Below, piece after piece: positions 52,745 through 61,157 of a stretch of 64,000 nucleotides of DNA. The position numbers and the translations under genes were made by a program. How positions within the stretch are numbered: position 1 is the first letter of the stretch; every line of letters begins with the position of its first letter. The stretch is from Microbacteriaceae bacterium (GTDB lineage: Bacteria > Actinomycetota > Actinomycetes > Actinomycetales > Microbacteriaceae). The stretch covers positions 1 through 64,000 of the forward strand of contig JACMPQ010000050.1 of the NCBI GenBank assembly GCA_014377425.1, in the 5' to 3' direction. The notes below the pieces were generated by a model, which saw only the letters and a program-made list of their open reading frames with translations, ran no database searches and was not told the DNA's origin.

Positions 52745-55700
52745 CTACGGCACCACGAGGAAGTACCGAGTGGGACTCCGTGACCCGTCAACCGCATTGG
52801 CGCTGGCGTTGGTCGGCTCGAAGCTGGCACGCACCGTGTAGGCGCCCTCCGGGAGGCGCGGAAGGGTGAGCTTTATCACCCCGCTGGCCGCGGCGTTCAA
52901 TGGCTGCTGCCGAACAGAGCGACCATTCACGATAATTGTCACCGTGCCTGTCGGTGCGCTGCTTTGCGCCGGAACTAGCACCCGCACCGACACCGTCTGA
53001 GTGGCGCCCGTCGAGAGCACGTTTTTCCCTACGGCAAGCGCAGTCTTCGACGCGAACTTCACGCGAAGAGTGTTGGACACCACGCTGGCCGTCGGCCGAT
53101 CTGGTGCGTGAGCCGTCACGCGCGCTGTGAGTTGCTTTCCCTGATCACCGGCCACCACTCGGTAGCTCGCGGTCGTGGCGTTCGCAATGTCTACGCCGTT
53201 CGCCCGCCACTGGTAGCTGTAGCTCAACTCGGGTACGTTCCACTGCCCCGAACTCACCGAAAGTGCCTGCCCGACCACAGGAGAGCCGCTAATCACGGGC
53301 AACGCGGTGTTGCTCGGCGCTGGCAACTGCACGGGGGCACCGGTCTCAACGCTCAGCATTGTGGCGAATCCGGTGTCGCCGAAAACGATGCGCGACAGGT
53401 ACCGGGCCTTTGGCGCAAGACCCGACCACGACGCCGCCACCGTCGCGGGTACACCCTGCTGGGCGTCGATCACCGACGGCGTGAGGGTTAGCGGTTGCCC
53501 GGTGCCCGAGGCCAGGACAAACGAGTTCAGGTCAAACGCCGTGCGGCGCTCGGCGCTATACACAGAAACCGTTATCTCGTAGGTTCCGGCATCCGGGTTC
53601 ACAATGTCGATACGCTCGTCGGCTGCTCCGGTCGCCGAATTATAGCCGGCGACCGGATTGTCGTTGGCATCCAGCAGGGTAGCCGCGAGGTCGAGATCGA
53701 CTAGCTGATCGGTACTTTTCAGATCGAAGCGGGCAAAGGGTGTCCCCGCGGGCACTCTAACGCGGTAGTGAAAAACGTCTCCCGAGACGCCCCCGCCGGA
53801 ATGATCCTTTTCGACCCCACTCGGGTCGGGCAAGCGTTCGCCCGCGGTAAGACCGATCGAGGACACCGTGATCGCACCGGTGCTGCCCGGAACCACCCGG
53901 ATGGCGGTCGATCCGGCCGTTCCCGTGCCACCCACCTCGCTGGGTGCCTCCAACGCCACCGGACGCACCACGATCGGACTCCGGGCTACGACGTTGCCGC
54001 TGGTCCAGCTCAAAGAACCAGTCGAAAATTCACCGAGCGGGGCATCCGTGCGGGCGAAGGTCACCGTGAAGGACTTCGTTTGACCTGCAGCGGTGAAGGC
54101 GAGGGTTGCGGGGGCAACCACCGCGGAGATCCCTGAGAGGCCAGCCACGGACGAGGAGAAGGTGCCCGCCTGCGCCGAGGTGACCGTACGGGTGATCGCG
54201 CGGGATGCGGTCAGCGCACCGACCGAGATTGAAGCAAGGTTCAACTCGCTCGCATTAATCGGTGCGGGCGAACTGGGCCTGGGCTCGTAGTAGCCGAGCC
54301 CGATGAGGTAAGCCAACCAGTCCCGACTGGAATTGCCGTAAATCAATCCCGGGGTGAAAAATGCCGGCGGGTTTACGTGTCCCGCGCCCTGAGCGAACGG
54401 GTCGGTTACCGTGTTGCCGGCAGAGTTGACCGTGTCGTAGGCGGTAGTCATCATCACGGATTTGATCTCACCCGGAGTGGCTTTCGGCCGCTGACTCAGA
54501 TAAAGAGTCGCCAATCCGGCGATGTGCGGTGCCGCCATCGAAGTGCCGCTGAGGAACTGGAAGGTGGCGGCAGCACCTTGAGCGTTAGCCCCGTCGGCGA
54601 GAATCGCCACTCCCGGAGCCGTCACGTCGGGCTTCAAAATGTTGCTTCCCTCGGCATCGATCGGTCCGCGTGAGGAGAATCCGGCAACCTGAGGGGTGGG
54701 GGCAGTCACGCTGGTTTCGTTGCCCGGTAGAAAGGTAACTGTGGCGCCCGTGGTGGCGGCGTACGCCATCACCTGGGCGCGGTAGGGGGCATCCAGATGC
54801 ACGGTGGGGATGGCGTGCTGGTCGAGGTCGAGCGAACTGGGGGTGACGTTTAGCAGGATCATCCCGATTCCCCCGGCCCGCAATACCTCGGTTGATTTGT
54901 CGACTCGCGCGCTAACGCCCCGGTCACAGACCACTATCTTTCCGGCCGTTTTTTTCGGGTCGAGGCTCTCGGCGAGGCACAGCGTCGGGGAGTCTGTCCC
55001 GGCCAATGCCACCGCAGTGGCGTTGACTAGCTCACCGCTCAGCGGGGTGGCGCTCACCGCTCGGTTGACCGTGATCGAGGCGCCGGCGAATTTTTCACCG
55101 TTACCCAGTTGCGCGGTCGCTTCAAAGCTCGGAATGGTGGAGGCTGCGACGGTGGTCTCCCACGGTGCGGCATGGTCGGCGGTGGCGGCATCCGGACCGG
55201 AATTTCCCGCCGAGGCCGCAACAAATACCCCCGCGACCGCCGCGCCGAGGAAGGCCTCGTCGGTCGGCGAGAACGAGGTGGTGGCGGCTCCGCCGCCGAT
55301 GGAGTAGTTGAGTACGTCAACGCCGTCCCGGGTCGCGGTATCGATGGCCGCAACTAGGTCGGATGTGGCGCAGCCGTCGTCTTCGGTGGTGCCAGGCACA
55401 TTTCCGGTCCAGCAGGCTTTGTAGGCCGCGATCTTGGCTGCCGGGGCAACCCCCGAAATGGTTCCGAAGTCTTGGCCGACAACGGTGGCGGCGACCCCCG
55501 CGTTTCCGGCGGCGGTAGAGGCGGTATGTGAGCCGTGGCCATCGCCGTCGCGCGGAGACAGGTACTCCCCGTCCGCTGCCGAGCCCCTGTTATCGGCGCC
55601 GAAACCGTCGACAAAGTATCGTGCTCCGATTACCTTCGTGTTGCAATCGCTGAGCGAAAATTGCTCTCCGGTTTGGCAGACACCGTTGAAGGTTTTGCCG

Positions 55701-56479
55701 TCGGCTTTTTTGAACTTGGTTTTCCCGGGTGCCGAATAGAACGGCACGGTTGCGCCACCTCCGCCGGTTGCAAGCGCCGGGCCGGCGAACGAGGGGTTTT
55801 CCGGCGCGATGCCGGTATCGATCACGCCCAGCACGACTCCCCGGCCGGCGGCATCCGCTCCACCGATCTTGCTCCACACTCCCCCGGGGCCGGACAGCCC
55901 GAGAAATTCGGTCGAAGGCACGGCGGTAACGTGTTGCAGCTCGTCGCGCTGTACCGATTTCACAGACTTCGATTCGGCGAGTTTTGACGCCTGAGCGGCG
56001 GTGAGGGTGGTGCTGAAGCCGTTGACAGCAATCGTGTACGAGTAGCGCACGGTGGCGCCTACCGAAGCCGCGACGCGCTTCTGTTCCCCGCCGAGGTAGT
56101 TGGTGTAATCGCGCACGACATCGGCGGTGGCATCTAGTTTTTCTCCGCTCGCCGGGGTGGTTTTGGCGAGACCGTGCGTTCCACCCGGGTAGGTAGCTGC
56201 GGCATCATCCTTTAAGGTCACGACGTAGCGGCCCGCGGTGAAGGTGGTTTTTTGATCAGAAATTCCGGATGCGGCGGCCGTCGCGCCCTGAGGCGTTCCC
56301 GCTGCACGTGCGGGCGAGCCGATAGCAACCAGACTCACGGCGGTCACGCCCGCCGCTGCCAGCGACGCAGCGCTCAGCCCCGCGAGGAATTTTCGCGCAA
56401 GCGAAGTGGCGCGGAACGCGCCGGAAGAGGTTGCGTTCGACGGGCGGTAAAGCCCAGAATCCTGCCGGCGTGACGTCAT
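52745..56479 (-). CDS. Large secreted subtilisin-like serine protease (S8)
   Basis: A 1244-residue protease. Order: signal peptide (to about 60, ending ARAAG), inhibitor I9 propeptide (about 82-185; GRYVVTLKDDAA), S8 catalytic domain with Asp221 (VIDTGI), His315 (GHGSHTA), oxyanion Asn425 and Ser646 (GTSMAAPH), with a PA domain inserted (about 460-590), a fibronectin-type region, a PPC-like domain (about 910-1010) and Ig-like C-terminal repeats. This layout resembles plant-type subtilases found in actinobacteria. It has no sortase motif at the end (SRSPTRYFLVVP), so it is probably released. GGAAC lies before ATG 56479. Confidence 0.95.
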   Translation of the reverse strand: MTSRRQDSGLYRPSNATSSGAFRATSLARKFLAGLSAASLAAAGVTAVSLVAIGSPARAAGTPQGATAAASGISDQKTTFTAGRYVVTLKDDAAATYPGGTHGLAKTTPASGEKLDATADVVRDYTNYLGGEQKRVAASVGATVRYSYTIAVNGFSTTLTAAQASKLAESKSVKSVQRDELQHVTAVPSTEFLGLSGPGGVWSKIGGADAAGRGVVLGVIDTGIAPENPSFAGPALATGGGGATVPFYSAPGKTKFKKADGKTFNGVCQTGEQFSLSDCNTKVIGARYFVDGFGADNRGSAADGEYLSPRDGDGHGSHTASTAAGNAGVAATVVGQDFGTISGVAPAAKIAAYKACWTGNVPGTTEDDGCATSDLVAAIDTATRDGVDVLNYSIGGGAATTSFSPTDEAFLGAAVAGVFVAASAGNSGPDAATADHAAPWETTVAASTIPSFEATAQLGNGEKFAGASITVNRAVSATPLSGELVNATAVALAGTDSPTLCLAESLDPKKTAGKIVVCDRGVSARVDKSTEVLRAGGIGMILLNVTPSSLDLDQHAIPTVHLDAPYRAQVMAYAATTGATVTFLPGNETSVTAPTPQVAGFSSRGPIDAEGSNILKPDVTAPGVAILADGANAQGAAATFQFLSGTSMAAPHIAGLATLYLSQRPKATPGEIKSVMMTTAYDTVNSAGNTVTDPFAQGAGHVNPPAFFTPGLIYGNSSRDWLAYLIGLGYYEPRPSSPAPINASELNLASISVGALTASRAITRTVTSAQAGTFSSSVAGLSGISAVVAPATLAFTAAGQTKSFTVTFARTDAPLGEFSTGSLSWTSGNVVARSPIVVRPVALEAPSEVGGTGTAGSTAIRVVPGSTGAITVSSIGLTAGERLPDPSGVEKDHSGGGVSGDVFHYRVRVPAGTPFARFDLKSTDQLVDLDLAATLLDANDNPVAGYNSATGAADERIDIVNPDAGTYEITVSVYSAERRTAFDLNSFVLASGTGQPLTLTPSVIDAQQGVPATVAASWSGLAPKARYLSRIVFGDTGFATMLSVETGAPVQLPAPSNTALPVISGSPVVGQALSVSSGQWNVPELSYSYQWRANGVDIANATTASYRVVAGDQGKQLTARVTAHAPDRPTASVVSNTLRVKFASKTALAVGKNVLSTGATQTVSVRVLVPAQSSAPTGTVTIIVNGRSVRQQPLNAAASGVIKLTLPRLPEGAYTVRASFEPTNASANAVDGSRSPTRYFLVVP

Positions 56480-56817
56480 CGTCTAGTTCCGATCAACAAG
56501 GGGTGGGTGCACTGCGCAATCCTCATGTCGCGCGCGCTGGGTCCACTCAATCACCCCGACCCCCCATTTCGGGTCAAACCGTTACTCAGACGTGATATTC
56601 GGGTAACGAAGCCGCGGCGGGCTGGCTCTATCACAGCGGCGGATGGCGGTGGGCGGCGTCACCGCCGTGCTCAGGTCCCGATGATCCGGCGAGAAACCTG
56701 CATAGTCGCTGGCGGCGATGCATCTGTAGAGCGAATGTGGCGCACCCATGCAGGCGACGCGCCGGTGGAACCCGGCATGATTACAGCATCGTTTCTTTTC
56801 TCAGTTCAGGAGCACCC
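56480..56817. other. Divergent intergenic region, protease and FMN-binding lipoprotein
   Basis: No gene is supported in these 338 bases. A short hairpin GGCGGT/ACCGCC (56645-56666) is visible. AGGAG five bases before the GTG at 56818 marks the lipoprotein start. Confidence 0.5.
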
Positions 56818-57321
56818 GTGGTCACCGTTCGCCTCAAAATTGCCGCCGTTGCCCTCGGCGGTGCCTCCCTTGTCGCGGGTCTTGCAGGCTGCAGTGCGGA
56901 TGCCGCAACCCCTGCACCGAGCACTGCAGCCGCCACCCCGTCTACCGCATCCAGCGCCGAGCCGACCACTCCGCTTGCATCGGGTACGGCGGGGGCCGGT
57001 GCGGGTGTGAGCGCTGGTACCGGTGGCTACAAAGACGGTAGTTACAGCGCTTCCGGAAGCTACAACAGCCCAGGCGGCGAGGAGTCGGTGACCGTCAAGC
57101 TAACCCTTCAAGCGGGCAAGGTATCGGCCGTCACCGTAGTGGGAAACGCCACCGACGGTAATGCAGTGCGATACCAGAAAGAATTTTCGGAGGGTATCTC
57201 GGCGAAAGCCGTCGGTATGGACATCGCCACCCTCAAGGTCGACAAGGTTGCGGGCTCCTCGCTCACCAGCGGCGGCTTTAACGATGCCGTCGAGAAAATT
57301 AAGGCGAAGGCCAACGCCTAG
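56818..57321 (+). CDS. FMN-binding-domain lipoprotein
   Basis: A 167-residue lipoprotein (lipobox LAGC, Cys25), an Ala/Ser/Pro/Thr linker (about 27-68), then an FMN_bind domain (YKDGSYSASGSYNSPGG at 71-87, KLTLQAGKVSAVTV). In such domains ApbE attaches FMN to the Thr/Ser of an SGAT-like motif; here it reads AGSSLTSG (145-152), so Ser148 is the likely acceptor in place of the usual Thr. The start is a GTG at 56818 behind AGGAG. The next two genes are ApbE and a membrane flavoreductase, so this protein would be the outer electron carrier. Confidence 0.85.
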   Translation: MVTVRLKIAAVALGGASLVAGLAGCSADAATPAPSTAAATPSTASSAEPTTPLASGTAGAGAGVSAGTGGYKDGSYSASGSYNSPGGEESVTVKLTLQAGKVSAVTVVGNATDGNAVRYQKEFSEGISAKAVGMDIATLKVDKVAGSSLTSGGFNDAVEKIKAKANA

Positions 57322-58195
57322 CCTGAGCGAACAGCTGATTTTTACGGCAATCGGCACCGAGTGGCGCATCGACACGCGACGCGCACTCGAACCGGCTGCT
57401 GTCGATGCCATCGCTTCTCGAGCAGAGGAGTTTGATCGGGTCTGGTCAAGATTTCGCGAGGACTCCGCGGTGAGTCGCATTTCGCGGCATCCGGGACGTC
57501 ATACTCTTCCACCGGAAGCCGTCAAACTCTTTGGCCTCTACGAAAAGCTTTACGCGGCAACCGGTGGTGCCCTCACGCCGCTCGTCGGTCGTGCGCTCGA
57601 AGAGTGGGGCTACGACGCGAACTACAGCCTGAAACCGCAACCCAGCGTGGCACCAGTGCCACGCTGGGAGGACGCCCTGGAATGGGACGGCACCGCGGTC
57701 ACCACCTCCGGCTCGGTGGTACTCGACGTGGGCGCGGCCGGAAAGGGCTACCTCGTCGACCTCATCGCGACCGTACTCGCTGCGCACGGGCTCACAGAAT
57801 TCACCATCGACGCCAGCGGTGACATCCTGCACCGGGCACTGCCCGAAACCGTCGAGCACCGCCTACGGGTGGCGTTGGAGCATCCGCTCGACCCCGCCCT
57901 CGCAGTAGGGGTGGCAACTATTTCCGATCGGGCGCTGTGCGCGTCGGCGTCAAACCGCCGAAGCTGGCCCGGGGCGCATCACATCATTGATGCCATCACT
58001 GGGCGACCCGCCCATGCCGTGATCGCCGGTTGGGCCGTTGCCGAAAGCTGCCTCGAGGCCGACGGGCTCGCAACCGCCCTTTTTTTCGTGAGCGGCGCGG
58101 CCCTCCAGGAGCGCTTCGATTTCGAATTTGTGCGCATGTTCGCTAACGGCCGGATCGAGATATCCGCTGACTTTCCAGGAGAAGTGTTCGGATGA
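57284..58195 (+). CDS. apbE: FAD:protein FMN transferase (ApbE)
   Basis: A 303-residue ApbE without a signal peptide, showing VLDVGAAGKGYLVD (146-159), FTIDASGDIL, HHIIDAITGRPA (232-243) and ADGLATALFFVS. It transfers FMN from FAD onto a Thr/Ser of target proteins, here most likely the lipoprotein encoded just upstream. The start is uncertain: ATG 57284 overlaps that gene by 38 bases, and no other standard codon precedes the conserved FTAIGTEWRID. It overlaps the next gene by 4 bases (ATGA). Confidence 0.9.
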   Translation: MPSRKLRRRPTPSLSEQLIFTAIGTEWRIDTRRALEPAAVDAIASRAEEFDRVWSRFREDSAVSRISRHPGRHTLPPEAVKLFGLYEKLYAATGGALTPLVGRALEEWGYDANYSLKPQPSVAPVPRWEDALEWDGTAVTTSGSVVLDVGAAGKGYLVDLIATVLAAHGLTEFTIDASGDILHRALPETVEHRLRVALEHPLDPALAVGVATISDRALCASASNRRSWPGAHHIIDAITGRPAHAVIAGWAVAESCLEADGLATALFFVSGAALQERFDFEFVRMFANGRIEISADFPGEVFG

Positions 58196-59703
58196 TTGCC
58201 CTGCTCGACCGACTCACCGCCCGAGTGACCATGTACCGACTCGCGATCATCGTGCTTGCCGCAATCAGCGTGAACGCTCTGGCGGCATCCTTCGGCGGGT
58301 TGCTCAGCTTCAGCCCACTGGCTCTGATTTCGAGTGCCGCCGTCGCCCTTGCCAGCACCCTCATTTCCAGTCGAGTAGTGGCTTTGTTGTTTCGCACCAC
58401 CCCGCATCTGGAATCCTCGATCATCAGTGCGCTGATCCTGTTTCTGCTGTTTTATCCGTCTATCGCCTCCGCCGACCTCACCGCACTCGCGCTTGCCGGA
58501 GTGGCGGCGACCGCATCGAAGTATCTGATCGCCTGGCGTGGGCGGCACCTGCTCAACCCCGCCGCGACGGGTGCGGCAGTAGTAGCCCTCCTTCACTTCA
58601 ACTCCGCGGTCTGGTGGGTGGCATCAAGCGCGCTACTGCCGGTGACCCTGCTCGGAGCATTTGTCATGCTCCAGCGCACTCGGCGGCTGACGATGGCGGC
58701 AGCCTTTGTTGCGGTCAGCGCGACCGTGCTGGTGCTGCGGTTTGTGGCATCCGGTGACTCTCCAGGCGCCGCCTTGGCAACCGCTTTTGTGTCTTATCCG
58801 ATCATTTTCTTCGCCGGATTCATGTTCAGCGAACCCCTCACGATGGCCCCGCGCCGTTGGCAGCAGCTCGCGATAGCGGTCATTGTCGGCGTGCTTTTCG
58901 GTCTGGTTGGCGCGGTTGCTCCTCTTGGCCCACTCACACTGTCGTTTGAGGTTGCCCTGTTGGTGGGCAACGCGGTGTCATTTGTGGCCGGTCAACGGCG
59001 CGGTATGCGGCTGGAGTTGCGTTCCAAAACTCAGCTGACGCCCACCACCTGGCAATTCGGTTTCCGGCCGGACCGACCGGTGCGTTTTCGGGCCGGACAA
59101 TATCTAGAACTCGACCTGCCCCATCGCGGTGTTGATCGTCGGGGTAGCCGGCGCACATTTAGCATCTCTTCTGCGCCGGTCGATTCCGAGCTGGTTACCG
59201 TGACCCTCCGGATGCCCGCGACCCCCAGCACCTTCAAAAAATCTCTTCTCGCCCTGGAGCCGGGTGCCGTGCGTCGAGCCACCCTCGTAGGCGGCGACTT
59301 CCTGTTGCCAAGGAGCCCCGACATCGGGGTGCTGCTGATTGCAGGGGGCATCGGGGTCACCCCATTTCTCAGCCAGCTTGCCGAAGATCGCTCCCGGGGA
59401 ATGATTCGCGCCGCGACCCTGCTCTTTGTGGCCCGAGGGGCAGAAGATCTGGCGATCATCGCAGGGCTTGCCGATGACGAAGTTCTGATCATCAGCCCCA
59501 CAAAACCGGAGGCGCTACCAAACCGGTGGCGGTGGCTCGGTGCCGAACGGATCTCCGCACCGCTGCTGGTGCGGGAGATTCCGGATGTAGCGAACCGTGC
59601 CGTTTTCGTGTCGGGGTCTCCAGCGATGGTGCACGCGGTGAAATCTGCGGCGCGGCGGGCCGGAACGCAGCGAATCGTCAGCGACTACTTCTCCGGCTAT
59701 TGA
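58192..59703 (+). CDS. Membrane flavoreductase, NqrB/RnfD-like plus FNR domain
   Basis: Residues about 15-270 hold some 8-9 membrane segments with NqrB/RnfD-like motifs (ASKYLIAWRGRHLLNPAATG, FFAGFMFSEPLTMAP). Residues about 275-503 are a ferredoxin-NADP reductase domain: RFRAGQYLELDLP, FAD motif RRTFSISSAP, and NAD(P) motif LLIAGGIGVTPFLSQL. No [2Fe-2S] domain follows. Together with ApbE and the FMN lipoprotein it would carry electrons from cytoplasmic NAD(P)H across the membrane to an external flavin. The domain fusion is seen; the pathway is inference. Confidence 0.85.
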   Translation: MIALLDRLTARVTMYRLAIIVLAAISVNALAASFGGLLSFSPLALISSAAVALASTLISSRVVALLFRTTPHLESSIISALILFLLFYPSIASADLTALALAGVAATASKYLIAWRGRHLLNPAATGAAVVALLHFNSAVWWVASSALLPVTLLGAFVMLQRTRRLTMAAAFVAVSATVLVLRFVASGDSPGAALATAFVSYPIIFFAGFMFSEPLTMAPRRWQQLAIAVIVGVLFGLVGAVAPLGPLTLSFEVALLVGNAVSFVAGQRRGMRLELRSKTQLTPTTWQFGFRPDRPVRFRAGQYLELDLPHRGVDRRGSRRTFSISSAPVDSELVTVTLRMPATPSTFKKSLLALEPGAVRRATLVGGDFLLPRSPDIGVLLIAGGIGVTPFLSQLAEDRSRGMIRAATLLFVARGAEDLAIIAGLADDEVLIISPTKPEALPNRWRWLGAERISAPLLVREIPDVANRAVFVSGSPAMVHAVKSAARRAGTQRIVSDYFSGY

Positions 59704-59837
59704 CTCGCGTTCTTCTTCGTCACCCGCTGCCGCCTGAACTGCCGCGGCTTCTTGCGGGTGATGCTTAAATTCAATCTTCCCGCACGTTCGACCGTCACGC
59801 TATACGATTAAAGCTCACGCGATTGAGGTGTCGGAGC

Positions 59838-61157
59838 ATGCAACAGCCCCCCCACGATTTCGGCAGCGAACCGGTGGGCGAGGTCTCCGCCGGAGCCGAA
59901 TTGCCAACTGACGACGGAGACTTCGCGGCGAAAACACGCACCGAGCCCAATGCGCCACCCGATGCCGACGAGGCCCCGCACAGCGAGAACACCTCCCCGG
60001 CCGGCGCTGGCGCGAGCCCTGTTTCAATGACAAAAGGCGAGGTGTTTTCTCCGCAGCGGGCGCTGGAAGCCGTCGGCGATCGGTGGAGCCTCCTGATCAT
60101 GCGCGAAGCGATGTTTGCCGGCACCACCCGATTCGACGATTTTCAAAAGAAGTTCGACGTAGCGAGCGACATTCTCGACGCGCGGCTGTCGGCGTTTGTC
60201 GGTGCCGGTCTCATGGAAATTCGAAGAATCTCAGGTGCCGGGGATCACTTTCAGTACGCGCTCACGACCCGAGGCAACAATCTCGAACCGGTGATCATCG
60301 CCCTCTGCATCTGGAGCGATGGTTGGGGAGTTAATCCGGGGCCAGCGGTGCCCTTCGAACACGATCAGCAAATTGCCGCAGCGTTGAGCGGTTCAAACGA
60401 AAGACCCGAACCCAATGAGGCGCGTCAGAACGCGCAGCGGGAGTCGCTGCAGACCGAAATCTGTTTGTTGAAGGGCTTCACTGTCAAGGTGGGAGGCAAG
60501 CCCCTCGATTCGTTGGCCGCCGGGTCCCAACGCCTGTTGGCATTTTTGGCGCTGCACGACACCGCGGTGGCTCGCGGCACCATGGCCGGAACCATGTGGC
60601 CGGATTCCTCGGAACAGCGTGCCGGAATCAGCCTGCGCTCGGCGCTCTCCCGCCTCGACACCCCGAGTCGTAACACCATCCTGTCGGCCTCAGCCGGGCT
60701 CAGCCTGATCGATAGCGTCGAAGTCGACTTGCGCGAGGCTCAGGCCATCGCCGCTCGGCTACTGAGACCCTCCGGCGAAGTAACCGACGCCGATTTGAGT
60801 TCGAGAGCACTTGGTCTGCTCTCCAGCGCGCTGCTACCGGATTGGTACGACGACTGGGTGATCGCCGAGGCGGAAGACTGGCGGCTGCTGCGAATGAACG
60901 CTCTGGAAGCACAGTCCGCGCTGCTGCTGAAGCGCGGCCGCTTCGCCGATGCCTCGAGGGCTGCGCGCGCCGCAATTAAGGCGGAACCGCTGCGGGAGAG
61001 CGCGACCGCCAGCCTCATTCGAGTGCACCTGGCCGAGGGTAATCAGTCAGACGCGCTGCGGAATTTCGAGCGCTACCGAGAGTTACTGCGCACCGTTCTG
61101 GATTTGGAACCCACCTCGTTGCTAACGGATTTAGTAGCCCGAATCCATCGAACTTAG
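59838..61157 (+). CDS. HxlR-SARP (BTAD) fusion transcriptional regulator
   Basis: A 439-residue protein with an acidic, disordered N-terminus (1-65), an HxlR-type winged helix (about 68-170; ALEAVGDRWSLLIMREAMF, ILDARLSAFVGAGLMEIRR), an OmpR/SARP-like DNA-binding region (about 207-295; LKGFTVKVGGKPLDSLAAGS, MAGTMWPDSSEQRAGISLRS) and a bacterial transcriptional activator (BTAD) helical repeat domain (about 300-435; ARAAIKAEPLRESATASLIR). HxlR proteins and SARPs are normally separate. ATG 59838 has GAGGTG seven bases upstream. Targets unknown; the adjacent flavin operon on the same strand is one candidate. Confidence 0.82.
   Translation: MQQPPHDFGSEPVGEVSAGAELPTDDGDFAAKTRTEPNAPPDADEAPHSENTSPAGAGASPVSMTKGEVFSPQRALEAVGDRWSLLIMREAMFAGTTRFDDFQKKFDVASDILDARLSAFVGAGLMEIRRISGAGDHFQYALTTRGNNLEPVIIALCIWSDGWGVNPGPAVPFEHDQQIAAALSGSNERPEPNEARQNAQRESLQTEICLLKGFTVKVGGKPLDSLAAGSQRLLAFLALHDTAVARGTMAGTMWPDSSEQRAGISLRSALSRLDTPSRNTILSASAGLSLIDSVEVDLREAQAIAARLLRPSGEVTDADLSSRALGLLSSALLPDWYDDWVIAEAEDWRLLRMNALEAQSALLLKRGRFADASRAARAAIKAEPLRESATASLIRVHLAEGNQSDALRNFERYRELLRTVLDLEPTSLLTDLVARIHRT

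Follow-up and report, generated by a model that had tools for sequence, protein, structure and literature searches.

An HxlR-SARP Fusion Regulator of Microbacteriaceae and Its Apparent Link to Adjoining Surface-Protein Genes

Introduction

SARPs are known mostly as activators of antibiotic clusters that carry any extra domains C-terminally. A gene in the window (the entire 64,000-nucleotide stretch of Microbacteriaceae DNA analyzed here) presents a different plan, in which an HxlR winged helix stands in front of a SARP module and an operon for flavin-dependent electron transfer lies directly upstream. This raises the questions of whether the fusion is real, what the HxlR domain contributes and which genes such a protein might control. 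According to the original prediction, made from the sequence alone, no characterized protein is known to have this combination. Our literature search, with subscription papers and preprints outside its scope, likewise found no paper that treats HxlR together with SARP or BTAD. Our preferred reading, to which we assign a probability of roughly 0.6, is that the protein is a SARP activator controlling adjoining genes, with the HxlR domain co-opted as a dimerization or input module. The family presents a SARP that is not tied to antibiotic clusters and bears an HxlR module at its N-terminus, and the fused domain itself offers a case of a DNA-binding domain with a likely change of role.

A Single Frame With Three Folded Domains

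The regulator is one protein of 439 amino acids encoded on the forward strand at 59,838-61,157, with an ATG start at 59,838 inside an open frame of 59,823-61,157 (+). It begins with an extension that is predicted to be disordered (pLDDT ~35-45) and is poorly conserved in the alignment of fusions (residues 1-68; 59,838-60,041, +). The HxlR domain follows, a winged helix of the MarR/DUF24 type that resembles PA1607 and lacks the alpha-1 cysteine (residues 69-171; 60,042-60,350, +). A low-confidence linker, variable in length by alignment and model (residues 172-204; 60,351-60,449, +), leads to an OmpR-type winged helix, or ODB (residues 205-291; 60,450-60,710, +). The recognition helix of the ODB, placed by alignment to AfsR and by conservation among the fusions, spans residues 259-271 (60,612-60,650, +), and a bacterial transcriptional activator domain, BTAD, completes the protein (residues 297-438; 60,726-61,151, +).

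Pfam recovered two of these parts. Its HxlR family (PF01638) matches residues 79-164 with E 7.9e-14 and 51.7 bits (cut-off 20.8), and its BTAD family (PF03704) residues 302-436 with E 7e-17 and 62.6 bits (cut-off 22.1). Trans_reg_C, the third domain expected from the original prediction, had no Pfam match in the 439 residues, and the ODB is recognized from structure only. The NCBIfam AfsR model matched residues 188-438 weakly, far under its cut-off. Searching the PDB with phmmer aligned residues 73-171 with PA1374 (4gcv) and PA1607 (2f2e), and residues 224-436 with AfsR.

An AlphaFold model built on an alignment of 41 relatives reached pLDDT ~95-98 for ODB and BTAD and ~90 for HxlR, with residues 1-68 and the linker disordered; built on the 16 fusions only, the ODB was poor (pLDDT ~55-65). 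In the 41-relative model, residues 205-291 have the complete OmpR winged-helix topology at pLDDT ~95, which confirms the OmpR-like domain that had been proposed. Superposition by VIA-align placed residues 204-439 on AfsR (8k60; Z 17.5, 234 residues, 3.5 A) and on EmbR (2fez; Z 16.4), and residues 69-171 on HxlR (7bze; Z 13.3) and HypR (Z 13.2). Foldseek also matched the HxlR domain to PA1607 (2f2e). The boundaries originally drawn by eye, 68-170 for HxlR and 207-435 for the OmpR-like and BTAD pair, hold up well.

The single uninterrupted frame was likewise read correctly. We rule out a frameshift or an assembly join of two genes, because the same uninterrupted layout recurs in 15 further full-length, non-redundant homologues. 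One detail had been overstated: the ribosome site described as good is a GGAG only 1 base 5' of the ATG, which is poor spacing. The closest relative of the regulator (L007) has a well-placed GAGGAGG.

A Small Fusion Family Among Stand-Alone Relatives

Searches covering relatives, named genome contigs and 398 genomes from the bacterial family found the architecture of HxlR, ODB and BTAD conserved in 16 non-redundant proteins, mostly from Microbacteriaceae. Carriers include Marisediminicola senii, Glaciihabitans, a Rhodoglobus MAG and further Microbacteriaceae, and two fusions lie on MAG contigs labeled Aeromicrobium (L007, the closest at 64% identity) and Actinomycetes (L011). The family is a small one, found in soil and cold-habitat actinobacteria. 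The source genome holds a second HxlR-SARP fusion (contig C27, locus L002), about 50% identical to the copy in the window, and searches across this genome returned no BTAD protein and no HxlR protein beyond these two fusions.

Stand-alone SARPs of the same subfamily were found in Agreia, Subtercola, Pseudonocardiaceae and some MAGs of Chloroflexota or Acidimicrobiia, and many of the close SARP relatives lack any added module. In one relative, L015:597-1847 (+), a PAS domain replaces HxlR in front of the same SARP module; the MAG contig that carries it is labeled Acidimicrobiaceae and may be misbinned. In a tree of the SARP part, most fusions fall together with L015 and the stand-alone Subtercola forms in one poorly resolved clade. 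On the question of a single origin of the fusion, an AU test does not reject one clade of fusions (p 0.17), but this tree requires four changes.

The SARP Half Retains Base-Contact Residues Known From AfsR

By its domains, fold and contact residues the regulator is a SARP: it has a BTAD, an OmpR-type winged helix just before it, and the contact residues of the recognition helix. Activation of transcription is the function that this assignment predicts. In alignment with AfsR, W254, R267, S268, S271 and R272 of the regulator correspond to W74, R87, T88, S91 and R92, residues whose roles we take from the AfsR structure paper (PMC10936776); the last four are DNA contacts of the AfsR recognition helix, and R272 adjoins the helix in the regulator. 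All 16 fusions agree at the positions of W74, R87, T88 and R92, and that of S91 is conserved in at least 90%.

The regulator thus shares with AfsR and the small SARPs of Streptomyces a two-domain module and the base contacts of its recognition helix. It departs from AfsR in that the phosphate contacts R94 and K95 are replaced by D274 and T275, and in that the extra domains of AfsR (NOD and TPR) are C-terminal while the HxlR domain is N-terminal. The same difference separates it from EmbR of Mycobacterium tuberculosis, which also joins ODB and BTAD to an added signaling domain but carries that domain, FHA, at the C-terminus (PMC10936776). The SARP domain of AfsR is monomeric in solution (PMC10936776).

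The HxlR Half Has Kept Its Fold and Largely Lost the Sensing Cysteine and Basic Residues

Residues 69-171 have the fold of HxlR/DUF24 proteins (HxlR, HypR and YodB; PA1607), and the nearest solved sequences are those of PA1607 (2f2e) and PA1374 (4gcv). In HxlR, a cysteine in helix alpha-1 is the sensor, and helices alpha-1 and alpha-5 form the dimerization domain; relatives sense electrophiles, oxidants or formaldehyde through the conserved alpha-1 cysteine (PMC7835342). Both dimerization helices are present in the model of the regulator (residues 72-79 and 150-164).

What distinguishes the fused domains from ordinary members, apart from the fusion itself, is the large-scale loss of the sensing cysteine and of the basic residues of wing and recognition helix. 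The comparison set consists of 27 stand-alone HxlR domains of related genomes and is mixed and non-independent. Relative to it, the mean net charge of recognition helix and wing is -3.1 in the fusions versus +0.7 (p 6e-6), the proline-basic (P-R/K) wing motif occurs in 1/16 versus 17/27, and the N-terminal (alpha-1) cysteine in 1/16 versus 24/27. The wing is often shortened, and helix alpha-1 is missing altogether in five of the 16 fusions.

These losses bear on two functions that the original prediction had offered for the HxlR domain. The first was that two DNA-binding domains bridge sites; in the form weighed here, HxlR would bind an inverted repeat of its own and the SARP half direct repeats, so that the protein would bridge or integrate two sites. 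An intact fold in the model (pLDDT ~90; Z 13.3 to 7bze) and a Pfam score well over the cut-off speak for it, against the depletion of basic residues, the frequently short wing and the absence from some fusions of a helix that belongs to the dimerization domain. The second was redox sensing, weighed here as a thiol sensor for oxidants or electrophiles in the manner of HypR, YodB or HxlR that would couple the SARP to the neighboring redox operon; the original prediction also named a possible ligand sensor. The behavior of HxlR relatives fits such a role, as does the flavin electron-transfer system encoded upstream, but the window's protein has no alpha-1 cysteine, its two cysteines (157 and 209) fall at positions that are not cysteine in most fusions, and redox operons are not the usual neighbors in the family. 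Because the cysteine (in 15 of 16), most of the basic residues and in some members alpha-1 itself are lost, both ideas are unlikely. We consider a second DNA-binding role improbable, and we give hardly any credence to thiol sensing, which we rejected on cysteine conservation; the case against an alpha-1 thiol sensor, like that against DNA reading, is strong but indirect. The fused HxlR domain probably no longer reads DNA.

A further alternative is that the domain is a vestigial passenger with no function. In its favor, conservation is lower here than in the SARP part, some members lack alpha-1, and the relatives without a fusion have the same operator (see below). Yet it remains in frame, folds confidently in the model and keeps a cluster of invariant or nearly invariant positions across the 16 proteins (R82, W83, L142, T143, G146, W159 and W163), and we therefore give a functionless passenger little weight. 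A co-opted module for dimerization or input is likelier.

A more specific version of the co-option reading can be put forward tentatively, at somewhat short of even odds. A domain of the HxlR repressor family may have been recruited in front of a SARP, have lost DNA binding and now serve as the sensing or dimerizing switch of a one-component activator of surface genes. The front module of this activator would be swappable for PAS or dispensable altogether. The targets would be the Cys-Gly repeat proteins and the ice-binding protein described below, and in the source genome perhaps the flavin electron-transfer operon.

Surface-Protein Genes Adjoin the Regulator in Relatives

In 12 of the 16 fusions, and in most of the stand-alone forms from Microbacteriaceae, the neighbor is a gene for a secreted protein, which lies nearly always directly upstream of the regulator on the same strand. 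The encoded protein has several Cys-Gly repeats of the type INQCNGSGNGGGS and an LAxTG-like wall anchor, and it belongs to no Pfam family. It is tightly linked to SARP regulators both with and without HxlR. One example is encoded at L003:2929-4125 (-), and others occur at L008, L012, L013, L016, L017, L047-L050 and further loci. In the Rhodoglobus MAG the repeat protein is replaced by a wall-anchored ice-binding protein (L010:4856-5881, +; PF11999, E 1.9e-48), whose gene stands behind the same kind of repeat array and before the HxlR-SARP gene. Other neighbors are a GGDEF gene (L007) and a dienelactone-hydrolase-like gene (L002). Where fusion family and antibiotic-cluster SARPs such as AfsR differ, then, is also in their apparent targets, which are surface genes here.

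Outside the fusion family, the gene before the stand-alone SARP in Pseudonocardiaceae encodes another small secreted protein, unlike the repeat protein (L026, L032, L034, L035, L037-L039), which suggests that control of secreted proteins may be more widespread in this SARP subfamily. A conserved gene for a small membrane protein, HdeD-like by eye, lies near the fusion in L003, L008, L009, L016, L047, L048 and L052.

A Repeat Array at a Fixed Distance From the -10 Element

Upstream of the surface-protein genes of relatives lie direct repeats of GTNACG with a period of exactly 11 bp, numbering three at the fusion loci and up to about seven in Subtercola. Among the loci analyzed, triple GTNAC arrays gave 42 counts at period 11 versus 0-2 at the other periods from 8 to 15, each triple site being counted twice (once per strand) since GTNAC is palindromic. 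A -10-like hexamer, NANNNT, follows the last 11-mer at exactly 5 bp in 15 of 16 arrays, and none of the other spacings between 0 and 15 has it in more than one of the 16. Direct repeats with an 11-bp period at the -35 position are the known SARP promoter plan (PMC10936776), and the anatomy of repeats and -10 element in the relatives matches it. In this respect too the relatives of the regulator resemble AfsR and the small SARPs, whose repeats overlap the -35 element.

Exact triples are also scarce in genomes that carry a fusion. Those listed for six fusion-carrying genomes (G065, G149, G194, G285, G202 and G080) number one or two per genome, and in each of the six, one adjoins the regulator. 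The best array sites of three further carriers (G335, G262 and G064) and of G027, which has an unfused regulator, adjoin it as well. Counted from the regulator's open frame, arrays lie for example at -1062 (L047) and at -1563 (L017). Unfused SARP relatives keep the same operator as the fusions. On the short contig of the closest relative, L007, no array is clearly present.

From this arrangement a circuit can be proposed. The regulator gene would be the last of, or immediately follow, the genes under its control, and the SARP module would bind the row of GTNACG repeats, the last of which would stand in for a -35 element. RNA polymerase would then be recruited through ODB and BTAD, as in AfsR, while the N-terminal HxlR domain would provide dimerization, signal input or both and so set the activity of the SARP half. 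The controlled gene would in most relatives be that of the wall-anchored secreted protein, and in one case that of the ice-binding protein. The domains, the conserved architecture, the losses in HxlR and the repeat and -10 anatomy beside the regulator are observed, and from them we infer binding, activation and the role of HxlR. With so sharply defined an operator-promoter, its 11-bp repeats at a fixed 5-bp gap from the -10 element beside surface and ice-binding genes, the arrays and the regulator together make a directly testable control circuit.

A Flavin Operon and a Candidate Operator in the Source Genome

At the source locus the neighbor is of another kind. The operon at 56,818-59,703 (+) ends 134 bp before the regulator. 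Its first gene encodes an FMN_bind lipoprotein (56,818-57,321, +; PF04205, E 7e-4, just below the cut-off), its second an ApbE flavin transferase (57,323-58,195, +; PF02424, E 1e-39) and its last a membrane protein with a C-terminal NAD(P)H-flavin/ferredoxin reductase domain, NqrB/RnfD-NqrF-like (58,192-59,703, +). This is the gene content of the NQR/RNF-like flavinylation systems (FMN_bind, ApbE and NqrB/RnfD-NqrF) described in PMC8238504, with the difference that the operon concerns us as a neighbor and candidate target of the regulator and not as the regulator itself. The original prediction that the regulator lies next to a redox operon thus holds here, but it does not extend to the relatives, most of which adjoin a surface-protein gene. 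The redox operon is accordingly rejected as a conserved neighbor, relatives having wall-protein genes instead, and within the bacterial family it often occurs with no such regulator alongside.

Upstream of the operon, at 56,581-56,607, lies a candidate operator, GTTAC-N6-GTGAT-N6-GTAAC, a triple GTNAC with an 11-bp period between the flavin operon and a subtilase gene. It is the sole triple GTNAC (11-bp period, at most one mismatch) in the 2.42 Mb genome, where a reversed control pattern also yields one match; none of 5000 shuffles of the intergenic region reached such a site. The order of array, genes and regulator is the order seen in relatives. On neither strand of the site does a -10 element follow at spacing 5, and on the full 44-bp matrix it scores poorly, at -0.8, where the family sites reach 24-42 when each is left out of the matrix. 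Elements of the form GTAAC-N6-GTTAC also occur some 534 bp upstream of the apbE match in two other genomes (L141 in G001, and more weakly L142 in G005). No fusion was found in G001 (81% complete) or in G005, despite these GTNAC-like elements before the orthologous flavin operon, so the element at 56,581 could serve another factor, which weakens the claim on the target. We regard it as no more than a candidate operator; we infer that the promoter region around 56,580 is the likeliest target region in the source genome.

These results also have to be weighed against a rival in which the window copy is a relocated paralogue whose operator specificity is altered or lost, the triple at 56,581 arose by chance or serves a different regulator, and the true targets lie elsewhere. 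The 44-bp matrix found no convincing match in the window to the canonical promoter of three repeats and a -10 element. Across the source genome, a two-repeat pattern with two mismatches gave 55 + 35 matches, no more than the 68 + 61 of the control, and was uninformative. The wall protein is absent beside both copies in this genome, with only a weak partial match (39% identity) elsewhere, and a separate, degenerate array accompanies the second copy. Against relocation, the ODB recognition helix of the window copy is nearly unchanged relative to the family (RAGISLRSALSRL), and the only triple in the genome heads the operon upstream of the regulator, in the order typical of the family. On balance we find a relocated regulator with distant targets doubtful, if by no means far-fetched, and we retain the activator of adjoining genes as the preferred reading.

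Smaller features of the two source loci may be noted. Divergent from the flavin operon, a large secreted subtilase is encoded at 52,745-56,479 (-; ATG at 56,479), with inhibitor I9, S8 peptidase, PA, fn3, PPC and Ig-like domains, and the candidate repeats at 56,581 fit GTNACG slightly better in the direction of this gene. Directly upstream of the regulator, a weak single half site, GTCACG-N10-AAAGCT (59,794-59,815, +), ranked fifth in the window. At the second HxlR-SARP gene (L002), the degenerate array consists of three repeats and a -10 element (GTCACC, GCCACG, GTAATG, then CACAGT) at about -417 from the frame, where autoregulation of that gene is possible.
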